Shown here: positions 15,002 to 28,365 of the stretch, in pieces
How positions within the stretch are numbered: the stretch's first letter is position 1
Layout: every line of letters starts with the position of its first letter
Source of the DNA: a virus
Length of the DNA stretch: 28,365 nt
Virus record (IMG/VR): IMGVR_UViG_3300047668_001718
Span: 1-28,365 of that record
Direction: 5' to 3' (one strand)
Notes under the pieces: generated by a model
The model's input: only the letters and a program-made list of their open reading frames with translations
Database searches by the model: none
Told to the model about the DNA's origin: nothing
Made by a program: the position numbers and the translations under genes

Positions 15002-16765
15002 CTAACGTTTTTGGCCTTTTTCAACAATAGTGAAAAAAGTTTCCAAGCATCTGGCCATCATGGCCGCCGCAACCTGCATCCCTTCGCAATCCCAAATGTG
15101 ATTGGCTCGCTTGCCAACCTTGTGCCATTCGTAAACAGGCTGGCCGGCGCGGTCGGCGCGTTCCTTGCGGCGCTCGGAAAACATTTGCAGTTCGTACTCC
15201 TGGCCGGAATCTGGGAGGGCAGTCCAACTGGCGCCCTTGCCTTCGCGCAGGTTGTAAAGTACGTCCTTCACCGTCGGGTTGCTCCAATGGAAAAGCGATA
15301 CAGGGCGCACTCTGCCCTGGGCCTTGGTTCCTATGGCCGGATCGACCAGCACCCTGGGCGAGTAGGCACGGCGCACGTTGGTTCCGTCCTTCAGTTTGTG
15401 CGCGAAGTCGCGTTGCTTGCTGCCCCTCATGCAAGTCCAGCCAAACTTTTTGCAGGCCGCATAGACCTTCTGAGAGTTGTAGGCCGAGTCGATGAACAGC
15501 AGGTGCGGTTTGATGTTGTACTCGATCCGCAAAGCCTCGACGTCCTCCCAGGTCAACGGCTTTGACCAATGCAACAGGCGGCTGTTGCCGTCATTCGACC
15601 AGGCGCGAACGACCAAATAAAATAAATCCTTCTGCACGTCCACAGTTGCGAAGCGGAAGTCCTCGGCAGGCCAGGGCCAGGCGTCATCATGCACCGACAG
15701 TTCTCGCAGTTCGTCGTCGCTCTCCATTTCCTCAATCCATGGCACGCCCAGCGATTCGCATTTGAACGCCTTCAAGGGAACAGTTGTCCCGACGCGAAGC
15801 GCAGCCTTGGCCTGAAGGAACTCCTGGACCAAATCACGCCAGGCAACCCATGGCGGCAGCACGGCCGACCAGCGGAAACTGACTTTCTCGCTAGGCGCCT
15901 GCGGGTTGGTAACTTCCCAAACGCCGGAACAGGCAAACGCCTTGCGTATGTCTTGCCGGTCAACAAACGGCGCCTGGCAGTCTGGGCATTCGTAGCGGAT
16001 TGTTTTTGTCAGTTCGTCGAAGTCCCATTCATCATTTTTGAACGTGTCGGCGTTCGTATCCCACTTTACATTCTCGAAAGCCATTTCGTGGCGGCCTTTG
16101 CAGGCAGGGCATTCGACTTTGTAGATGCGCTGGTCGCCTTCCATGTAGGCACGATGCACATGGTCGTTTTCATGGTCAGGCGTTGAAATCATTATCCGGC
16201 GAGCGTTCCAGAATGCCCGCGTTCGTTTCAGCACCATCTCGTATGCGCCTGGTGGATAGTTGCGCACCTCATCCAGAAACAACCAGCGCACAGGTTTGCT
16301 TTGCAGTTTGCTCTGACTGTTGGCGCCGTTAATTACCAGCGGCATCGAAGCGAAATTGATTTCCAAAGTCGTCTTGGCGTGTCGGTCGGCAGGGAACAGC
16401 CGCGCCACAGGTTCGCAGTTCTCCAGGGTCGGCATCAACCTTGTCCTGGCAAAGGTCTTGGCCTCGTCCTGGGCAGCCATCACCCACATGGCAGGGCCGG
16501 CATCCTCGGCAATGCACCAGGCCAGCAACGTCATCACCATCTGTGTTTTGCCAGACTGGGCGCTGCACATGATGGACAGGTCTTTCACGCGGTTGTCGGC
16601 AAAGCATTCCATTGGTTCCTTCGTCCAGGGCGCGATATTGGAATTGAACTTGCCAGGGAAGGGGCTGGTCTTGTCAACGATGATGTTTTTCTCTGCCCAC
16701 AGCCATGGTGCGTCGGTACTCCTGGGCGCAATGGCTTGGCGTGCGATTTCTTCGGTGTAGGTCAT
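15002..16765 (-). CDS. Terminase large subunit (lambda gpA family)
   Basis: 587 residues. The N-terminal ATPase has a Walker A-like motif CSAQSGKT (67-74) and Walker B WLFLDE (161-166). A zinc-ribbon-like insert carries CPAC (219-222) and CPDC (260-263). The C-terminal nuclease domain has acidic positions in RFATVDVQKD (Asp 376) and HLLFIDSAYN (Asp 426). This is the architecture of the gpA family, which cuts concatemers and drives DNA into procapsids through the portal; gpA-type enzymes usually cut at cos sites. The start overlaps the preceding gene by four bases (ATGA). Length is close to the family norm, with no missing motif. Confidence 0.92.
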   Translation of the reverse strand: MTYTEEIARQAIAPRSTDAPWLWAEKNIIVDKTSPFPGKFNSNIAPWTKEPMECFADNRVKDLSIMCSAQSGKTQMVMTLLAWCIAEDAGPAMWVMAAQDEAKTFARTRLMPTLENCEPVARLFPADRHAKTTLEINFASMPLVINGANSQSKLQSKPVRWLFLDEVRNYPPGAYEMVLKRTRAFWNARRIMISTPDHENDHVHRAYMEGDQRIYKVECPACKGRHEMAFENVKWDTNADTFKNDEWDFDELTKTIRYECPDCQAPFVDRQDIRKAFACSGVWEVTNPQAPSEKVSFRWSAVLPPWVAWRDLVQEFLQAKAALRVGTTVPLKAFKCESLGVPWIEEMESDDELRELSVHDDAWPWPAEDFRFATVDVQKDLFYLVVRAWSNDGNSRLLHWSKPLTWEDVEALRIEYNIKPHLLFIDSAYNSQKVYAACKKFGWTCMRGSKQRDFAHKLKDGTNVRRAYSPRVLVDPAIGTKAQGRVRPVSLFHWSNPTVKDVLYNLREGKGASWTALPDSGQEYELQMFSERRKERADRAGQPVYEWHKVGKRANHIWDCEGMQVAAAMMARCLETFFTIVEKGQKR

Positions 16766-17055
16766 CGCTTTATGAATTTGCGGGCGTATTGCATGAACCT
16801 TTGCAACTCCAGTTTTTCGTATTCGTTTCTTTCAATGCGTAAATTCACAATCTTGCAACCGTAATGAACAGAAGAACGGTCTTGCCCCCAAAACTCTGCA
16901 ATCACGCTTTTTTTGATGCCGGCGTCGTTTGCAATCCACTGACAGTGATGCCGTGGCCTGGTGTAAATGGCCGACCTGTTGGTGCTAGTTAAGCCTTCAA
17001 ACGGCACCTGGTAAAAGTCGGCGGCTGCCTCGGCCAATTGTTTCAGTTTTCCCAT
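16762..17055 (-). CDS. DnaA domain IV-like protein between terminase genes
   Basis: 97 residues. The central part (CQWIANDAGIKKSVIAEFWG, then QDRSSVHYGCKIV) follows the helix-turn-helix and signature of DnaA domain IV, whose usual form is IGxxFGGRDHSTVxHAxxKI. There is no ATPase domain, so it could bind DNA but not act as a full initiator. It lies between the small and large terminase genes, one base after the small-subunit stop. It may bind the packaging site, or host DnaA boxes, to link replication and packaging; that is inference. Confidence 0.65.
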   Translation of the reverse strand: MGKLKQLAEAAADFYQVPFEGLTSTNRSAIYTRPRHHCQWIANDAGIKKSVIAEFWGQDRSSVHYGCKIVNLRIERNEYEKLELQRFMQYARKFIKR

Positions 17056-18550: not shown

Positions 18551-20476
18551 TCAGGTGCGAAATTGGCCGAAAGGCATCCAAATGCCGCCCTCCTGCTTGA
18601 ATACAGAATCGGCATCCTTCAGCTTTTTAAGGGAGCGGAAGAAGGATGTTTTGCTGATGCCATGCTCGGCTTTGGCCTTCTCCAGCCAATCGCCAAAGGT
18701 CAACCCATCCTTGGGCAGCAGGTCTAGCAGTTGGTTCTCGTTGTAGGTTTTCTTTCTCCCTGGCTGCCGTATCCCCTCAACGTCCAGGTCGTCGCATGGC
18801 TTGAGTTGTGGGAAGTCCCAGCGCAGGGCAAATGGTGGGATTGCAGGGAAGCAGCGCAGGGTTGCCTCACAAACGTAGCAATCATCCTCTTCATGGTCTG
18901 ATAGTATCAGAATAGCGTCAGGGTCGCGTGATAGCACGCCGCTGCCACTCATGCGGTCAATGGCGAATTTGCCTCCCTGGGCGCCTTTGGCGAAGTGATG
19001 GGCGAACACCAGGGCGCTGCCTGAATCCACCGCTAAAGCCTCAAATTCGTTCATTAGGTCGGCCATATCGCCGGCATCGTTCTCACTCCGGCTGCCTATC
19101 AGCTTGTAAATAGGGTCGAAAATCAGCAGGCTAAAGTCCCTTGATTCAATGGCTTGGGCCAAAATAGGGCGAAGAACAGTCATATCGGCCGCCTGCCCTC
19201 GCAGGTTCAGCACGTGAACGCGGGAAGCATCCTTGCAGTTGCGGGCCTTCAGAATGGCCTCCATACGCTGCCTGAAATTGAACTCCTGAAGCTCAAAATT
19301 GATGTAGAGGACGTCGCCAAGATTGCATTGACGGCCCCAAAACTCGCTTCCTGTGGCCACAGCAGCGGCCAAATCCATCAGCGACCAGGTTTTGCGGCCT
19401 TTGCTGGTTCCTCCCACGATCATCTTCCCGCCCCTATACAGCACGCCATCAATCACTTGTTGTGGTACAACCATAGGCGTGGTTTGCAGGTCGGAATATC
19501 GTTTGATAATTAGGCCAGCCGGCACTTCGTCTGCTGTTTCCTCTGCCTTGACCTTTGGCATTCGCCTGGCCAGCGCCAACCCTGACTTGAGGGCGCTCTT
19601 GCCGTCACGTTTAAGCCAATCGTTTGTGTCGTTGATGTCGTCAGGCACCTTGACCTTGAAAACGTCGCCTGTGGCCATTTCTGCCACCTGGTTGGCCCAC
19701 TTGGCGCCTGCCTCGTCATTCTGTGGCCATATATAAATCTTTTGGCCTGGGTGCAGTCTGCCCTCCAGCTTTCGGGCATTGGATGCGCCCCTGGTAATCA
19801 TGCAGGCGTGGGTTTCAGGCTGCCAGGCGCCGTTGCCGAAGCCTTGGGAATCCATGAAGGCCATTGCATCCCATTGGCTTTCGAAAACGTGCAGATTGTC
19901 GGCGTTATGGCTACCGATTAGCCAAGGTTGATTGCCCCCGCCTGTGATGCGCCAGCCTGACTCTGTGCGAAGGTGCATTCCCTGGTAGGCGCCGCCCTCG
20001 TTGTAAATGGGGAAAGCGATTGACTCACCAACCAAACCAGCCAGGCCGTTTTCTATGAGGCCAACCAGCAGCGTTTTTGAGTAACCGCGCCAGGTTGCTA
20101 AATGGGCCAAGGTCTTGGGATTGCCGGCCAGACTCTCAACAGCCTGGCGCCACTCGCCAGCGTCGGGCAGTTTGCCAATGCTGACGGTTGTTGGTTCGGC
20201 AGGTTGTGGCAGGCCGACCATGTTCTCGTAATGCTTCAGCGCCTCCTTTGTGTCGCAGTTGTGCAGGGCTTTTAGGAAGTCCAGTTCATCGCCTCCCTGG
20301 CCGGTTGCAAAGTCCTTCCAGTGATGGCCCTTGTCGTCCTGGTAAATGCCCCAGCTTGGGTTGTTGTCCTTGCGTAACGGAGAACAACAAAGCTTTTTGG
20401 CATAGTCGCCCAGCCCCATGGCTCGGAGCAGGTCAGGCAACGGCAGTCTTGCCTTCAGTTCGTCAATTGTTGCCAT
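18551..20476 (-). CDS. Primase-helicase (toprim plus RepA-like ATPase)
   Basis: 641 residues. The N-terminal 90 residues resemble a CHC2-type primase front (LCCSPLRKDNNPSWGIYQDD) but keep only part of the zinc ligand set. A toprim-like region follows with VFESQWDAM (198-205) and IYIWPQNDEAG (247-257). The C-terminal half is a RepA/AAA_25-type helicase with P-loop GGTSKGRKTW (355-364), in which Arg replaces the usual second Gly, Walker B LLIFDP (450-455) and the sensor FAHHFAKG (491-498). The final 65 residues look like a winged helix (KTSFFRSLKKLKDADSVF). It should unwind and prime at the phage origin. No DNA polymerase is encoded nearby, so host polymerase is probably used. Confidence 0.85.
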   Translation of the reverse strand: MATIDELKARLPLPDLLRAMGLGDYAKKLCCSPLRKDNNPSWGIYQDDKGHHWKDFATGQGGDELDFLKALHNCDTKEALKHYENMVGLPQPAEPTTVSIGKLPDAGEWRQAVESLAGNPKTLAHLATWRGYSKTLLVGLIENGLAGLVGESIAFPIYNEGGAYQGMHLRTESGWRITGGGNQPWLIGSHNADNLHVFESQWDAMAFMDSQGFGNGAWQPETHACMITRGASNARKLEGRLHPGQKIYIWPQNDEAGAKWANQVAEMATGDVFKVKVPDDINDTNDWLKRDGKSALKSGLALARRMPKVKAEETADEVPAGLIIKRYSDLQTTPMVVPQQVIDGVLYRGGKMIVGGTSKGRKTWSLMDLAAAVATGSEFWGRQCNLGDVLYINFELQEFNFRQRMEAILKARNCKDASRVHVLNLRGQAADMTVLRPILAQAIESRDFSLLIFDPIYKLIGSRSENDAGDMADLMNEFEALAVDSGSALVFAHHFAKGAQGGKFAIDRMSGSGVLSRDPDAILILSDHEEDDCYVCEATLRCFPAIPPFALRWDFPQLKPCDDLDVEGIRQPGRKKTYNENQLLDLLPKDGLTFGDWLEKAKAEHGISKTSFFRSLKKLKDADSVFKQEGGIWMPFGQFRT

Positions 20477-20759
20477 TTATGACTTTGCGAAGGCGTTCAC
20501 GTTCCTTGGCCAGTTCAGGCTCTTGCTTGCACAGGTCGGCGACACGTTGGTGCGCGTAGACTGTGCTTGTGTGGTGCCGGTTGAATGCCGTGCCAACCTC
20601 GGCGCAGGAATAGGGCTGTTCGTAGGCAATCGACATGGCCAGGAGTCGCGGCCAACTGATTGGCCAAGGGCCGCGCCTGGGTTGGGTTAGTTGTTTTTCC
20701 TCCAGGCCGTAGTGCTTGGCTGTTCGTTTTAAAATCTGTTTTAAGGTAGGTTTACGCAT
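20463..20759 (-). CDS. DnaA domain IV-like protein next to the primase-helicase
   Basis: 98 residues from ATG 20759, eight bases inside the preceding gene; it overlaps the primase-helicase start by 14 bases. Residues about 38-75 (RLLAMSIAYEQPYSCAEVGT, then FNRHHTSTVYAHQRV) closely follow the DnaA domain IV pattern ([23 protein letters not shown]). Only the DNA-binding domain is present. Coupled translation with a primase-helicase suggests origin recognition and helicase loading, in the way lambda O does for P, but the binding site is not identified. A second protein of the same type lies at 16762-17055. Confidence 0.75.
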   Translation of the reverse strand: MRKPTLKQILKRTAKHYGLEEKQLTQPRRGPWPISWPRLLAMSIAYEQPYSCAEVGTAFNRHHTSTVYAHQRVADLCKQEPELAKERERLRKVINGNN

Positions 20760-21225
20760 TCGTAAAATTGTGCAGTTGTGACTGCTCGACAATGTATGAC
20801 CATCGGCCGTTCAGTTCGCGGTAGTTTATGTCGGCGAAAACTTCGTCCTTGTAGGCGTAACCGATGACGTCGAAGGCCGGAGGCGTGCCAATAACTAAAA
20901 CATAAATATCTGTCGCACAGTCTTTTTTGTTGGGCGTAACCAAGAGCCGGCCGCCAACGTATCGCGTCGTCTTAACGTCGATGGTTTTGCCGTTGCGTGC
21001 TACGCAGTCATGAGTCAGCGATTGGTTCACAACAGACAGGTCGGGGTGCAGGTTCATGGCCTTGCAAAAAGCCAACTCTGCCGCGAACCCGTCAACGTCC
21101 ATTTGGTAGGATGAATGGCTGCCGATCTTGCGTTCAACAATGTTGCCGGCCCTGTTGCAGGTCGTCCGCATTGCTGCCACCACATTGGCAATTGCCATTT
21201 CGCTGGCTGTCAGTTCAATTTTCAT
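20752..21225 (-). CDS. PD-(D/E)XK nuclease-like protein
   Basis: 157 residues from ATG 21225; an in-frame GTG at 21243 also exists, but the ATG gives an N-terminus matching the neighbouring gene. The order Glu 50 (GFAAELAFCKAM), Asp 73 (THDCVARNG) and the DVK of TIDVKTTRYVGG (83-85), followed by strands (LLVTPNK, DIYVLVIG), is the core of the restriction-endonuclease-like fold. It could be a recombination or host-DNA-degrading nuclease. Its first ten residues (MKIELTASEM) nearly duplicate those of the preceding gene. Confidence 0.65.
   Translation of the reverse strand: MKIELTASEMAIANVVAAMRTTCNRAGNIVERKIGSHSSYQMDVDGFAAELAFCKAMNLHPDLSVVNQSLTHDCVARNGKTIDVKTTRYVGGRLLVTPNKKDCATDIYVLVIGTPPAFDVIGYAYKDEVFADINYRELNGRWSYIVEQSQLHNFTNA
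21196..21225 (-). repeat. Duplicated start segment, copy 2
   Basis: The first ten codons of the nuclease-like gene (MKIELTASEM) match 26 of 30 bases with the first ten codons of the preceding gene at 21575-21604. The core ATTGAACTGACAGC is identical in both. Similarity stops abruptly after the tenth codon. Confidence 0.85.
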
Positions 21226-24887: not shown

Positions 24888-25202
24888 TTAAAGAAGGCTT
24901 GCCCACCAGCGCAGGGCGCCAGGGTTTGCCTGCCAGAAGGTAGTCAGGCCGGTTGCAAATGTCAGGACGACTTGTTCCTCGGTTTCGTAGTCAACCGACA
25001 TGGCAGCGCCAACAGCGTGCAAAACCTCATGCATGAACGTGTCGGCCAGCGCCTGCCTGCTCTGCCCCTCGGCTAGCACAATTTCCTGCTGGTCAAAGTC
25101 ACACCATCCACTTGCCTCGATGCTGGCCACAAAGCGCACCGTGTAGGTGAGGTTGAGAATCTTCAAGCGCCTTGGCGCAGCTATTTTTCGAGCAGTTGCC
25201 AT
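24888..25202 (-). CDS. Small HExxH (zincin-like) protein
   Basis: 104 residues. DTFMHEVLHAVGAAM places HExxH at residues 58-62, and a downstream acidic stretch (VDYETEEQVV) could supply the third ligand or shape the site. The preceding text (GWCDFDQQEIVLAEGQS) resembles short phage ImmA/IrrE- or SprT-like metallopeptidases. Such proteins are common in phage genomes but their substrates are not known. It overlaps the nuclease gene by 22 bases. It is unlikely to be the endolysin, as it lacks a peptidoglycan-hydrolase signature. Confidence 0.7.
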   Translation of the reverse strand: MATARKIAAPRRLKILNLTYTVRFVASIEASGWCDFDQQEIVLAEGQSRQALADTFMHEVLHAVGAAMSVDYETEEQVVLTFATGLTTFWQANPGALRWWASLL

Positions 25203-25600
25203 GCCTGAAGATAGGGCGCCAGCACGCCAGCAGGCTGGCCAGGCGCCCAGTTGAATTTTGTAACTGTGGCAGATTCAACCGGCAGAACAAAAAAAGCTTT
25301 GTGTTCAAGGCCGACAAAAACCAGGAAATCCGTTTCCTCGCGCGTGTAAAGGTCGTTGGTGCTGCGGCATTTTGGGAAGAAAGAATACCGCCCAACGTGT
25401 TTGCCTGGGTCGATTGCCGGCTTCGCGCAGGTCTTTACCTGGACACGCTGAACCTTGCGGCCTTTGACGGCGGCAATGTCAAAGCTGGGTTGGTGCGGCG
25501 ACATACAGACCTGCCAGCCACGTTGGCACAGTTCGGCGGCAACCAGGTATTCGCCAGTTGCGGAGGTTAGCAGTGTATCATTCAGCAACGACCTTGGCAT
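25181..25600 (-). CDS. PD-(D/E)XK endonuclease-like protein
   Basis: 139 residues. LTSATGEYLVAAELCQRGW supplies the helix with Glu 17, and SFDIAAVKGRKVQRVQVKTC supplies Asp 41 and the QVK variant of the (D/E)xK motif (54-56). A later GRYSFFPKCRSTNDLYTREE segment and DFLVFVGLEHKAFFVLP strands complete the pattern of the PD-(D/E)XK_5-type family, which includes resolvase-like and homing nucleases. It overlaps the o-spanin-like gene by 23 bases. The Gln in place of an acidic residue is found in some active members. Confidence 0.7.
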   Translation of the reverse strand: MPRSLLNDTLLTSATGEYLVAAELCQRGWQVCMSPHQPSFDIAAVKGRKVQRVQVKTCAKPAIDPGKHVGRYSFFPKCRSTNDLYTREETDFLVFVGLEHKAFFVLPVESATVTKFNWAPGQPAGVLAPYLQAWQLLEK

Positions 25601-25844
25601 GGAGTTCGTGCAGGATTTCCTGCATTCTGGCGTCAGGCACGAACCAACCAGGCACAGCCGGCGTGTAGGCTTCAGCCGCCGGCAGACGTTCCACTAGCTT
25701 GTCGGCCGGAATCACTAGCAACCTTGGCGTCGTGGCGCAGCCGGCGCAGAGTAGACTCAAGGCGAGCGTTGACGCGCTCCTGGTTGCCAGTAGCCACGGC
25801 CAGGTCGATTTCAGACAAGGCGTCCAAGTATTCGGCGTTGTCAT
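25578..25844 (-). CDS. o-spanin-like outer-membrane lipoprotein (Rz1-type, overlapping)
   Basis: 88 residues from ATG 25844, which lies within the coding sequence of the i-spanin-like gene in another frame and runs past its end. A hydrophobic segment (WPWLLATRSASTLALSLLC) leads to AGC, a lipobox with Cys rather than Leu at -3. The mature part is short and Pro-containing (TTPRLLVIPADKLVERLPAA, then YTPAVPGWFVPDARMQEI). In-gene overlap with a membrane-anchored coiled-coil protein is the Rz/Rz1 arrangement, in which the two proteins link the membranes and fuse them at lysis. The n-region is unusually long, so the real start may be further in. Confidence 0.7.
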   Translation of the reverse strand: MTTPNTWTPCLKSTWPWLLATRSASTLALSLLCAGCATTPRLLVIPADKLVERLPAAEAYTPAVPGWFVPDARMQEILHELHAKVVAE

Positions 25845-25920
25845 CTTCAAGGCGTTTGATACGCCGCTTGGCGTACCAGGTAACCAGGGCCGCCACTACG
25901 GCCAGAACAACCTCAAGCAT
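25672..25920 (-). CDS. i-spanin-like membrane-anchored coiled-coil protein
   Basis: 82 residues. The N-terminal membrane segment (MLEVVLAVVAALVTWYA) is followed by a basic patch (KRRIKRLEDDNAEYL) and a heptad-rich periplasmic helix (SEIDLAVATGNQERVNARLE, STLRRLRHDAKVA), ending in a Ser/Gly tail. This is the plan of inner-membrane spanins, and most of the lipoprotein at 25578-25844 overlaps it. It overlaps the holin-like gene by eight bases. The length is short for an i-spanin but within the range of small phages. Confidence 0.7.
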   Translation of the reverse strand: MLEVVLAVVAALVTWYAKRRIKRLEDDNAEYLDALSEIDLAVATGNQERVNARLESTLRRLRHDAKVASDSGRQASGTSAGG

Positions 25921-26098
25921 CCTCGGCCGGAGCGGTATCAGATTTGATACCCTTCCTGATGAAAATGCCCATCATGGCCGTCACGGCCAACTGCACGGCG
26001 GCGCCAAGCTCAATCTGGCCTTGCAGGTATAAACCACAGGCGGCTAGTAGGGCGCCAATGCCCGTCATGTAACTTTTTTTTCCTTTTAGTGCGTCCAT
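25913..26098 (-). CDS. Holin-like two-segment membrane protein
   Basis: 61 residues with a good AAGGA seven bases before the ATG. Two hydrophobic segments (YMTGIGALLAACGLYLQG and AAVQLAVTAMMGIFI) are separated by a short polar turn, with an N-terminal GKKSY and a charged C-terminus (RKGIKSDTAPAEDA). This matches small phage holins and holin-like proteins encoded beside spanins. Holins form the lethal membrane hole that starts lysis. No second start for an antiholin is evident. Confidence 0.65.
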   Translation of the reverse strand: MDALKGKKSYMTGIGALLAACGLYLQGQIELGAAVQLAVTAMMGIFIRKGIKSDTAPAEDA

Positions 26099-26099
26099 A

Positions 26100-26246
26100 T
26101 TATTGTCCTTTGTTTTGTATTAAATAATAAATCTTAGCAACCAAGTAACAGAGACAGGCGGTTGATATGCTTAACTGTAGGAGTTGCGAAATTTCAACGT
26201 ACCAGGTGCCGACGCCGACGACGCCGCTGCCGGTTGCTTTGCTCAT
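26100..26246 (-). CDS. Short membrane protein (48 aa), easily overlooked
   Basis: The frame runs from ATG 26246 to TAA at 26100, exactly filling the space between two membrane-protein genes. An in-frame TTG at 26252, eight bases after AGGTGA (which contains the preceding stop), is an equally good start. After a Gly-rich N-terminus (KATGSGVVGVGTWYVEISQL) comes one membrane segment (LSISTACLCYLVAKIYYLI) and a short polar end. A holin, antiholin or lysis regulator is likely from position. Confidence 0.65.
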   Translation of the reverse strand: MSKATGSGVVGVGTWYVEISQLLQLSISTACLCYLVAKIYYLIQNKGQ

Positions 26247-26260
26247 GTCCAATATATCAT

Positions 26261-26515
26261 TCACCTTTCAAGAGGCATTAACTTTGGCCAACTTGCCGGC
26301 GTGGCATTCAGTCTGTTTGTTTGTACTCCAAAAAAACCAACTGCTGGCGGCGCCATTTCTGGATTATAAAATTCCAGTTCCAAACCACCCATGTCCAGGT
26401 CGAATGATTTAATCCTGTTGGTGCTGCAACCGATAGCCAGGGCCGACAGGCAGACGATTATAGACCAGCGTCTAGCGGCGTCTTGTCGGTTGCTGTTGGG
26501 AACGAATAAATTCAT
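26261..26515 (-). CDS. Small lipoprotein, second o-spanin candidate
   Basis: 84 residues from ATG 26515; an in-frame TTG at 26548 lies deeper in the upstream gene. A basic N-terminus (NSNRQDAARRW) and hydrophobic stretch (SIIVCLSALAIG) end at a Cys, giving an imperfect lipobox (LAIGC). The mature part is about 54 residues (STNRIKSFDLDMGGLELEFY, then APPAVGFFGVQTNRLN). It overlaps the preceding coiled-coil membrane protein by 44 bases, an arrangement parallel to the Rz/Rz1-type pair 600 bases downstream. Confidence 0.65.
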   Translation of the reverse strand: MNLFVPNSNRQDAARRWSIIVCLSALAIGCSTNRIKSFDLDMGGLELEFYNPEMAPPAVGFFGVQTNRLNATPASWPKLMPLER

Positions 26516-26768
26516 AATTGGCTTCAGCTTGTTTCTCAAGTCGTGCAAGGCGTTCGCTCACTTCAGCCAGGCGCTTGTCGGTTTGATTGTGGCGCTCGAT
26601 GAGTTTGATGGTGATGCCTTCAAGGGCTTTGAAGGAGTCCTCCATTGAGGCGAGACAGGCCCGCAGGTCGTCCAGCGTGAAATTAACAAGGCGAACCACG
26701 AACCAACCGGCCGCGATGGCTGCCGCCGCCGCAAAACCGTGCTGTTCAAGAAATGCCCCAAAGTCCAA
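26472..26768 (-). CDS. Membrane-anchored coiled-coil protein (holin- or i-spanin-like)
   Basis: 98 residues from a TTG start (26768) preceded by AGGGGG; no ATG occurs in frame before residue 42. An N-terminal membrane segment (GFAAAAAIAAGWFVVRLVNF) is followed by a long heptad region (LEGITIKLIERHNQTDKRLA, EVSERLARLEKQAEANYEF) and a basic tail (PTRRR). This plan fits BhlA/XhlA-type lysis proteins or a spanin. It overlaps a lipoprotein gene by 44 bases. Confidence 0.6.
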   Translation of the reverse strand: MDFGAFLEQHGFAAAAAIAAGWFVVRLVNFTLDDLRACLASMEDSFKALEGITIKLIERHNQTDKRLAEVSERLARLEKQAEANYEFIRSQQQPTRRR

Positions 26769-26789: not shown

Positions 26790-27101
26790 TTATTCTGTTG
26801 GCGCAGCTTCTACAACTGGCGCTGCCTCTAAATTTAATTGAGTCAACGCGAGTTGCTGCAGATACGCCTCGTCGCTTGCCGCTGCGTCCGGTGTCCAATC
26901 GCGCCATTTAGGGCCGGTGACTTGGAGTAACTCGGTATGAATTAGTCCGGTCGCCGTAACTGGTTTGCCTTCCTCGTCCGTTAATTGGCGAGTGCTATAA
27001 CATTCCAAGCTGTACTGCATCCCAAACATTTGGGCCGAGTTTAGTTTCACCTCAACCAAACTTGCGTTGAGTGCTTCTGTGGGGACTGTGTTAATAGTCA
27101 T
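26790..27101 (-). CDS. Small protein of unknown function near the fibre genes
   Basis: 103 residues, starting at ATG 27101 six bases after the preceding stop. The sequence is mixed beta (SLVEVKLNSAQMFGMQYSLE, TGLIHTELLQVTGPKWRDWT) with an acidic Ala/Glu/Pro-rich end (EAAPVVEAAPTE). It lies between a fibre-region gene and the lysis cassette. A structural or fibre-accessory role is possible from position; no family is recognised. Confidence 0.55.
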   Translation of the reverse strand: MTINTVPTEALNASLVEVKLNSAQMFGMQYSLECYSTRQLTDEEGKPVTATGLIHTELLQVTGPKWRDWTPDAAASDEAYLQQLALTQLNLEAAPVVEAAPTE

Positions 27102-27107
27102 ATCAAA

Positions 27108-27380
27108 TTATTCGCCGTCTGATTCTTCCGCTGCCGGTTCTGCCGCTGCTTGGCTTGCGACATATGCCGCCACAACTTCATCCGTCCATACTGCTGACGC
27201 AACGGCTTGAACCTTCGCATCCTCGCCGGTTACGTCATCGCCGGGGGCTAATACTTTGCGGTGGAATGAGCGGTTCAATTCTACGCCGTCATCGAGTACA
27301 ACTGTGTCGGTTCGCAATCCGATTGAACCATTTTCGCCAACTTCGATTTGGCCCATTACTGTTTTCTTTTCTAATGCCAT
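27108..27380 (-). CDS. Small protein following a tail fibre gene
   Basis: 90 residues from ATG 27380, eleven bases after the fibre stop; an in-frame upstream codon would overlap the fibre gene. The N-terminal half is beta-rich (KTVMGQIEVGENGSIGLRTD, VELNRSFHRKVLAPGDDV), then helical and acidic (AYVASQAAAEPAAEESDGE). Short proteins of this kind often follow fibre genes in environmental phages. Function unknown; a fibre chaperone is one possibility. Confidence 0.6.
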   Translation of the reverse strand: MALEKKTVMGQIEVGENGSIGLRTDTVVLDDGVELNRSFHRKVLAPGDDVTGEDAKVQAVASAVWTDEVVAAYVASQAAAEPAAEESDGE

Positions 27381-27391
27381 ATTGATGTCTT

Positions 27392-28365
27392 TTAAGCCGC
27401 TTGATATACTGTGGAACACTTGAGCCGATACCCGTCTGCTGCTGGATATAAGTCATTTGACGTTTTAACCAAACTGACTAATCCGGTGCCTATCGTTCCA
27501 GTAATAGAAAATCCTACGGCGGTAACTTCTCTGCCGATCGCGTAGCTGTTATTTGCGCTTCCGGTAAAAGGTAACGTTGCGTTCAGCGTGCCAGCACCGG
27601 TGCCATTAGTGGTTACGGTAATATCGTATGTTGCGCTGACTACTCGCCCCACCCTTGTGTATGTCCCCGTCGCGCTTGCGGTTGTAATCGTTCCAGTAGC
27701 CGATGTAACAGTAGGAGTAAATGTACCAACCTCATACGCATCAAGTGTATACCCCGAAGCGGTAGTTCCCGTACCAGTTGTCGCCGACTGAAACGCAATC
27801 CCCGCCGAGAATGTCGCTAGACCGGAGGTTCCGTCGATGGTGACGCGAGTTGTGTTGTTTGTGCCGATGTATAGCGGGTATGCACCACGAACCGTCACAT
27901 AACCAGTACCACTCCAATTACTCAATCGCAGCGAGTTTTCATTTGCGGTGTTGCCAAGATAAATCGCCGCACCGTTGGTCGCCGACCCGCCTTTGACATT
28001 CAACGCCGTAGAGTAACCGTCTGGGTCGGTTGGTGTTGCGCCAATCCCCACGTTGCCCGAACTTCTGTCGAACGTTATTACTGGGCCGTGCCACGCACCC
28101 GCATAATATCGGTCGATATGCAAATCCTTATTAGCTGCATCCAAACGCAAGCCGAACTCAATAGCATTACCAGCGTCTTTTAAACTAAATCCAACAGTGC
28201 CAACCGTGTCTGATGGTGTCGAAGCTACTTGAACGAGTCCCGCGCTGTCGATGGTCAGTGCGTCTGTCCAAGTGATTGCTCCAGTCGTTACTGCTGTACC
28301 GGCTACTCGTAACTTGTGAGTTCCGTCAACCATTAGGTGCTGACTGCACGCAGCTTCAATCAACC
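27392..28365 (-). CDS. Tail fibre protein, C-terminal part (5' end outside window)
   Basis: The frame is open to the right edge, so the N-terminus is missing; the first possible start (TTG 28363) is only the edge of the window. The text is typical of phage fibres: GNVGIGATPTDPDGYSTALN (a stalk motif), VKGGSATNGAAIYLGNTANE, then YEVGTFTPTVTSATG and GTYTRVGRVVSATYDITV, the common YEEGTWTP..YTKIGR-type C-terminal domain of tail fibres. No S74 chaperone motif is visible. It begins the right-hand gene order of fibre, lysis and replication. It may continue from the left-edge fibre cluster if the genome is circular. Confidence 0.8.
   Translation of the reverse strand, partial: LIEAACSQHLMVDGTHKLRVAGTAVTTGAITWTDALTIDSAGLVQVASTPSDTVGTVGFSLKDAGNAIEFGLRLDAANKDLHIDRYYAGAWHGPVITFDRSSGNVGIGATPTDPDGYSTALNVKGGSATNGAAIYLGNTANENSLRLSNWSGTGYVTVRGAYPLYIGTNNTTRVTIDGTSGLATFSAGIAFQSATTGTGTTASGYTLDAYEVGTFTPTVTSATGTITTASATGTYTRVGRVVSATYDITVTTNGTGAGTLNATLPFTGSANNSYAIGREVTAVGFSITGTIGTGLVSLVKTSNDLYPAADGYRLKCSTVYQAA

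Follow-up and report, generated by a model that had tools for sequence, protein, structure and literature searches.

Two-component spanins, whether Rz/Rz1 of phage lambda or overlapped pairs such as LysB/LysC of P2, have in common a membrane protein gene that is overlapped out of frame by a lipoprotein-like ORF. A 2018 survey of spanins records a cysteine in 507 of 528 pairs and thus about 4% without one, combined lengths of 62–300 residues, and a lipobox consensus of [LVI][ASTVI][GAS]C; other topologies are described as possible but lie outside the survey's criteria (PMC6139136). A second layout comes from mycobacteriophages Girr and NormanBulbieJr. Their LysF1b is a single-helix lysis protein in N-out/C-in orientation; four basic residues follow the helix, the helical tail is charged, and the gene is found just after that of the two-helix protein LysF1a (PMC13056207). 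Similar proteins of 79–145 aa are described from Gordonia phages (PMC9671378).

To compare these systems with a new locus, we analyzed a 28,365-base virus record, the whole of which we call the window. A sequence-only reading of this DNA had described six consecutive membrane or lipoprotein genes, and the anatomy it gave is confirmed: six ORFs of interest lie on the minus strand at 25578–26768, two lipoprotein-like ORFs each overlap a short membrane protein gene, and two more membrane protein genes lie between them. We refer to A1 and A2 as pair A and to 'Rz' and 'Rz1' as pair B. The six ORFs are as follows.

A1, 26472–26768, minus strand: TTG start; 98 aa with an acidic N-tail, one N-terminal helix, and a coiled coil; PHROG 18771 relative, putative holin-type family
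A2, 26261–26515, minus strand: ATG start, in-frame TTG at 26548; small lipoprotein-like ORF
TM1, 26100–26264, minus strand: GTG start; 54 aa, single helix
TM2, 25913–26098, minus strand: ATG start; 61 aa, two hydrophobic stretches, putative holin-type
'Rz', 25672–25920, minus strand: ATG start; 82 aa with a short helix, KRRIKR, and a helical tail; candidate i-spanin, atypical
'Rz1', 25578–25844, minus strand: ATG start, in-frame TTG at 25850; o-spanin-like lipoprotein ORF with the motif PGWFVPDARM

On the 5′ side of this cassette are s2 (27108–27419), s1 (26790–27101), and a tail-like protein, and on the 3′ side are PD-(D/E)XK-type and metallopeptidase-like genes. The window carries a siphovirus gene set comprising terminase, portal, head maturation protease, major head protein, tape measure protein, and primase/helicase. 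Its ends appear to split one tail protein, with the LamG-like start at 3–758 and the end at 27392–28363, and in relative 9370 (L009) a single 644-aa ORF, judged by eye, seems to hold both parts. Because both window ends look like pieces of one tail protein, the window is probably a nearly complete small siphovirus genome (~28.4 kb); we looked for an end repeat in the window and found none. Two window ORFs (16762–17055 and 20463–20792) match the DnaA C-terminal DNA-binding domain PF08299, at 2.8e-6 (under the cut-off) and 6.1e-10, respectively. Relative 9370 has a phage integrase (PF00589; L009:5381–6511), flanked by the metallopeptidase gene on one side and the SSB-side genes on the other, and thus the lineage includes likely temperate phages. 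By eye, an ORF of 2514_004988 (L010:1–747) is similar to this integrase, and the window has none at that place.

In an annotated phage collection, a DNA search returned only short 70–78% pieces, all from outside the six genes. In the same collection, tblastn gave no match for A1, A2, 'Rz1', 'Rz', or TM1, nor for a Verrucomicrobiota lipoprotein or a marine A1 (see below), and TM2 alone matched, its relatives being confined to two Synechococcus phages (41.7% over 48 aa). A literature search found no publication on these families. In Ssp-JY42 (PP438432), the TM2 homologue lies in a lysis region, preceded by an annotated D-alanyl-D-alanine carboxypeptidase gene and followed by a gene that encodes a 170-aa Rz-like protein and encloses a lipoprotein-like ORF. 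The order resembles that of the window in that the TM2 homologue comes before an Rz-like gene accompanied by a lipoprotein-like ORF, here an internal one. Unlike in the window, the endolysin comes directly before the TM2 homologue, the Rz-like protein is 170 aa long, and the remaining neighbors, judged by eye, are not A1, A2, or TM1.

The reading that we favor, at a probability of roughly 0.5, is that the six ORFs make up one lysis cassette and not two spanin systems. A1, with one helix and a coiled coil and probably in the N-out/C-in orientation, would join TM1 and TM2 as inner-membrane holin-type proteins that time lysis, and the holin-type assignment of these three is itself probable. Pair B would be a two-component spanin of overlapped architecture; with its lipoprotein placed in the outer membrane and its 82-aa protein in the inner one, it would join the two membranes after the wall is cut. 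A2 would be an extra lipoprotein between A1 and TM1, translationally coupled to both, rather than the outer-membrane partner in a second spanin. A supposed double spanin thereby turns into one readable cassette. It is a variation on known lysis cassettes, having an unexplained extra lipoprotein and a spanin-like pair with an atypical inner-membrane half. What the sequences show directly is that the genes are coding, their homology and synteny, and that pair A is optional; the functions, topologies, and lipidation are all inferred from them.

The substitution patterns of the six ORFs indicate that each of them is coding. Both overlaps between membrane protein and lipoprotein genes are partial, with neither ORF fully embedded: 44 nt in pair A (26472–26515) and 173 nt in pair B (25672–25844); A2 in turn overlaps TM1 by 4 nt (GTGA). 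Against relatives, dN/dS is 0.05–0.38 where computable, save for the lipoprotein frame within the pair B overlap, where it is 0.41–0.69. In all four comparisons, pS of 'Rz' is lower inside the overlap than in its own non-overlapping part (L009, 0.18 vs. 0.46; L008, 0.29 vs. 0.45; L022, 0.51 vs. 0.77; L023, 0.72 vs. 0.95). This fall in silent divergence is what translation of both frames would give. The weakest coding case is A2, the fastest diverging of the six, with dN/dS of 0.30 against L009 and a value against L022 that is not computable because silent sites are saturated. Its best coding evidence is the stretch RIKSFDLDMGG[LI]E[LI]E and the C-terminal TP[AT]SWP[KR]LMP, which are common to A2 and L022. 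Both lipoprotein-like ORFs are predicted to be lipidated, and their lipoboxes, LCAGC in pair B and ALAIGC in A2, are off-consensus at −3.

Of the two pairs, B is more likely to be a spanin. When viral contigs were searched with profiles, its lipoprotein turned up in seven, namely 46451_001817, which is nearly identical to the window, and six others. A short membrane ORF overlaps the lipoprotein upstream in all six non-identical relatives, down to about 21–24% identity, and the persistence of the overlap at this divergence argues for a functional pair. Spanin genes are expected to be embedded, overlapped, or adjacent, and those of pair B are overlapped with both frames constrained. The combined length of about 117 residues falls within the surveyed range (PMC6139136), and the pair sits in a lysis region, as Rz/Rz1 do. 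Profile matches are weak, with 'Rz1' reaching PHROG 456 'Rz-like spanin' at 0.0063 in the window and at 0.0023 in L023. The lipoprotein has a hydrophobic stretch ahead of its LCAGC, and the corresponding sites in relatives read LTAC, TMGC, and CAGC. The usual periplasmic cysteine is not found in either half: the window 'Rz' tail has none, and mature 'Rz1' has none besides the lipobox cysteine. Since about 4% of the pairs in the survey also have none, a missing cysteine is not strictly defining (PMC6139136).

We compared the membrane proteins of pair B with seven control i-spanins, six of them annotated (lambda, T7, P2, HK97, DLP12, and phiKMV, of which lambda, HK97, and DLP12 have nearly identical N-termini) and one unannotated and assigned by us (Ssp-JY42). 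A positive-inside count over 15 flanking residues was tried as a topology test; because six of the seven control i-spanins likewise have more K/R after the helix, we rejected plain K/R counting as a discriminator. Over the seven residues that directly follow the hydrophobic core, a span chosen post hoc after the 15-residue result, there are 3–5 K/R in all eight pair B proteins versus 1–2 in all seven controls. The pair B proteins have 55–65 residues after the core (65 in the window) versus 83–148 in the controls, and six of the eight have no cysteine, whereas each control has one or two. In the window, KRRIKR comes right after the short helix of 'Rz', and no basic residue comes before it. Thus, where pair B had been called Rz/Rz1-type from its letters, the anatomy holds and the call is plausible, but the membrane half departs from all seven controls in tail length, cysteines, and juxtamembrane charge. 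Because of this mismatch and of a layout like that of LysF1b, we put the chance that pair B is a working spanin pair only slightly above even.

The alternative that survives best is that pair B is not canonical. The 82-aa protein would be a LysF1b-like lysis protein with N-out/C-in orientation that works with the two-helix TM2, and the lipoprotein, by itself or together with an unrecognized partner, would act on the outer membrane. We regard this as possible but less likely than not. In the order of genes, TM2 and 'Rz' resemble LysF1a and LysF1b, where the gene of a two-helix protein is overlapped by the next one, which encodes a protein with a single N-terminal helix; 'Rz', like A1 in general, shares with LysF1b the basic residues after the helix and the charged helical tail (PMC13056207). 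This likeness is one of layout, and the LysF1 proteins come from Gram-positive hosts and have no lipoprotein beside them. The KRRIKR cluster with nothing basic ahead of the helix, the lack of cysteine, and the short tail fit a LysF1b-like protein, and proteins of comparable kind occur in the Gordonia phages cited above; on the other hand, K/R counting does not separate the controls, and spanin pairs without cysteine and as short as 62 residues are present in the survey. The genes upstream of related lipoproteins in Verrucomicrobiota encode proteins of 53–55 aa, of which two of the five measured have an amphipathic start, which also favors this alternative, but the pair B membrane protein compares with these upstream genes at an hhalign probability of only 9%. 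Finally, the lipoprotein overlap kept in all six non-identical viral relatives points to a functional pair, which counts against this alternative.

For A2 alone, a role compatible with the single-cassette reading would be that of a periplasmic lysis-timing regulator or of a superinfection-exclusion lipoprotein housed in the lysis cassette. A2 is coupled between A1 and TM1 through the 44-nt and 4-nt overlaps, keeps the motif IK.[FL]D[LF]..G[LI]E.E[FY] in all three distinct copies, and is optional within the clade, and the integrase of relative 9370 makes temperate phages likely within the lineage. Against these points, A2 has no family match in PHROGs or Pfam and both roles are putative, so that we regard either one as possible but doubtful. 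In one and the same relative of the window, A2 is 49% identical over 57 residues and A1 is 95% identical; because A2 diverges fast while A1 stays nearly constant, the two are unlike a co-evolving pair.

The relatives also differ in whether and where they carry pair A. TM1 is present in four of the six non-identical relatives (9370, 32132, 37191, and 30376), and A1 and A2 are present in two (9370 and 37191); the A1 profile found nothing in 32132, 30376, 49893, and 38451, the last two of which are fragments of ~14 kb. In 32132_000036, TM1 comes directly after s1 and pair A is absent, and in 37191_001407, pair A sits before s1 and not after it as in the window. From its absence in some relatives and its displacement in 37191, we conclude that pair A is optional as a unit and has sat at two different positions. 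In 37191_001407 the cassette also has a further insertion, an additional secreted-looking protein (L022:1207–1581) that separates TM1 from TM2.

Hallmarks of the pair B lipoprotein family are an IP.D-like stretch and PGW[FH]VPDARM, and the family reaches beyond viral contigs. Among 84,980 species genomes, we could confirm a single relative, carried by a MAG titled Akkermansia muciniphila (Verrucomicrobiota; the species label is doubtful), and 11 of 387 Verrucomicrobiota genomes match the family at E <= 0.001. Besides the first place, 18 more were looked at, of which 12 carry an ORF with G[WY].[VI]PD and 6 do not. Viral and Verrucomicrobiota lipoprotein profiles match at 97.9%. Verrucomicrobiota was the sole phylum searched in this way, and therefore a host assignment to it is only suggestive. 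The same 387 genomes gave no match for A1 or A2, an empty result that carries little weight. The lipoprotein family is thus conserved and has remote Verrucomicrobiota relatives, and its membrane partner may break the N-in/C-out rule by which spanins are recognized.

No lysin was found in the window by Pfam scans of 38 ORFs or by PHROG scans of 30 ORFs, and M15 and GH108 profiles built from fetched marine loci found none there either. Just downstream of pair B is a small HExxH metallopeptidase-like protein (24888–25202; PHROG 1233 at 1.5e-15, weak DUF6782) that is kept in 9370 and 32132; when it was folded as an endolysin candidate, mean pLDDT was 57, a model too poor to use. The missing endolysin is either too divergent, part of a tail protein, in a small unsequenced end gap, or this protein. 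One could go further than the LysF1b-like alternative and suppose a lineage, possibly infecting Verrucomicrobiota, that has no canonical i-spanin, in which the single-helix proteins are all N-out/C-in, outer-membrane breakage falls to the PGW[FH]VPDARM lipoprotein, acting by itself or through a C-in partner, A2 is a second clade-specific module, and the wall is cut by an unrecognized enzyme. We consider this combination unlikely.

Evidence on pair A comes mainly from the relatives of A1. A search with three A1 sequences gave 58 loci, of which the 56 that do not belong to this clade are in marine phages, and profile-profile comparison puts the homology of A1 to the marine loci at 97%. The next gene is a TM1 homologue (97.9%, profile-profile) in 34 of the 55 outside loci that could be assessed, one near a contig end having been left out. 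In 47 of 53 outside loci (three near contig ends left out), an endolysin of the M15 or GH108 type is found no more than 1.5 kb after the A1 homologue, and in 17 outside loci the two genes are direct neighbors without a TM1 homologue in the middle; because many of the contigs are near-duplicates, these locus counts are not independent events. Marine cassettes of the order A1-TM1-endolysin, e.g., L105 and L086 on IMG/VR contigs, have A1 and TM1 homologous to those of the window and in the same order. They differ from the window in that an M15 or GH108 endolysin comes next and no relative of A2 or pair B was found. A lipobox ORF at the end of A1 was found in none of 55 outside loci and in both of the clade loci in the same scan, which covered 57 of the 58 loci (L063 was dropped) and used a looser pattern because the strict one missed the L057 copy. 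A large unannotated marine family, A1/TM1, is therefore tied to endolysins and has a testable role in lysis.

For the holin-type reading of A1, then, the adjoining endolysin is seen for the homologues, and in the window no endolysin was recognized. The window A1 matches phrog_18771 at 1.1e-6, and its best holin family is only phrog_689 at 0.038. No holin profile matched A1 above the cut-off; for the marine relative L095, PF10960 BhlA (0.012) and PF09682 (0.051) were both under it, and PHROG 739 'Rz-like spanin' (2.1e-5) outscored any holin family. In all seven A1 proteins tested, two or three acidic and no basic residues come before the helix, and this acidic N-tail suggests an N-out/C-in orientation. 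With A1 homologues standing by endolysins without a lipoprotein in many marine phages, and with this N-tail, the idea of two membrane-bridging systems in one phage is not supported; the alternative that the sequence-only reading itself had offered, namely an unrelated lipoprotein beside a holin-type protein, is better supported by the endolysin neighbors and by the lack of a lipoprotein in the outside loci, and pair A is very probably not a spanin. That A1 and A2 form a second two-component spanin is improbable: A1 is a membrane-anchored coiled coil with an overlapping lipoprotein-like ORF, has one cysteine after its helix, and has the marine relative that matches PHROG 739, but its homologues stand without a lipoprotein at 55 of 55 outside loci and adjoin endolysins, its N-tails are acidic in seven of seven proteins, and A2 diverges while A1 does not. 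Another contig has a further arrangement. In L108:1351–2095, a membrane ORF (1351–1569) is overlapped by a lipoprotein-like ORF (1496–1777), possibly a spanin pair, and directly after it comes an A1 homologue that matches PHROG 18771 at 2.5e-11.
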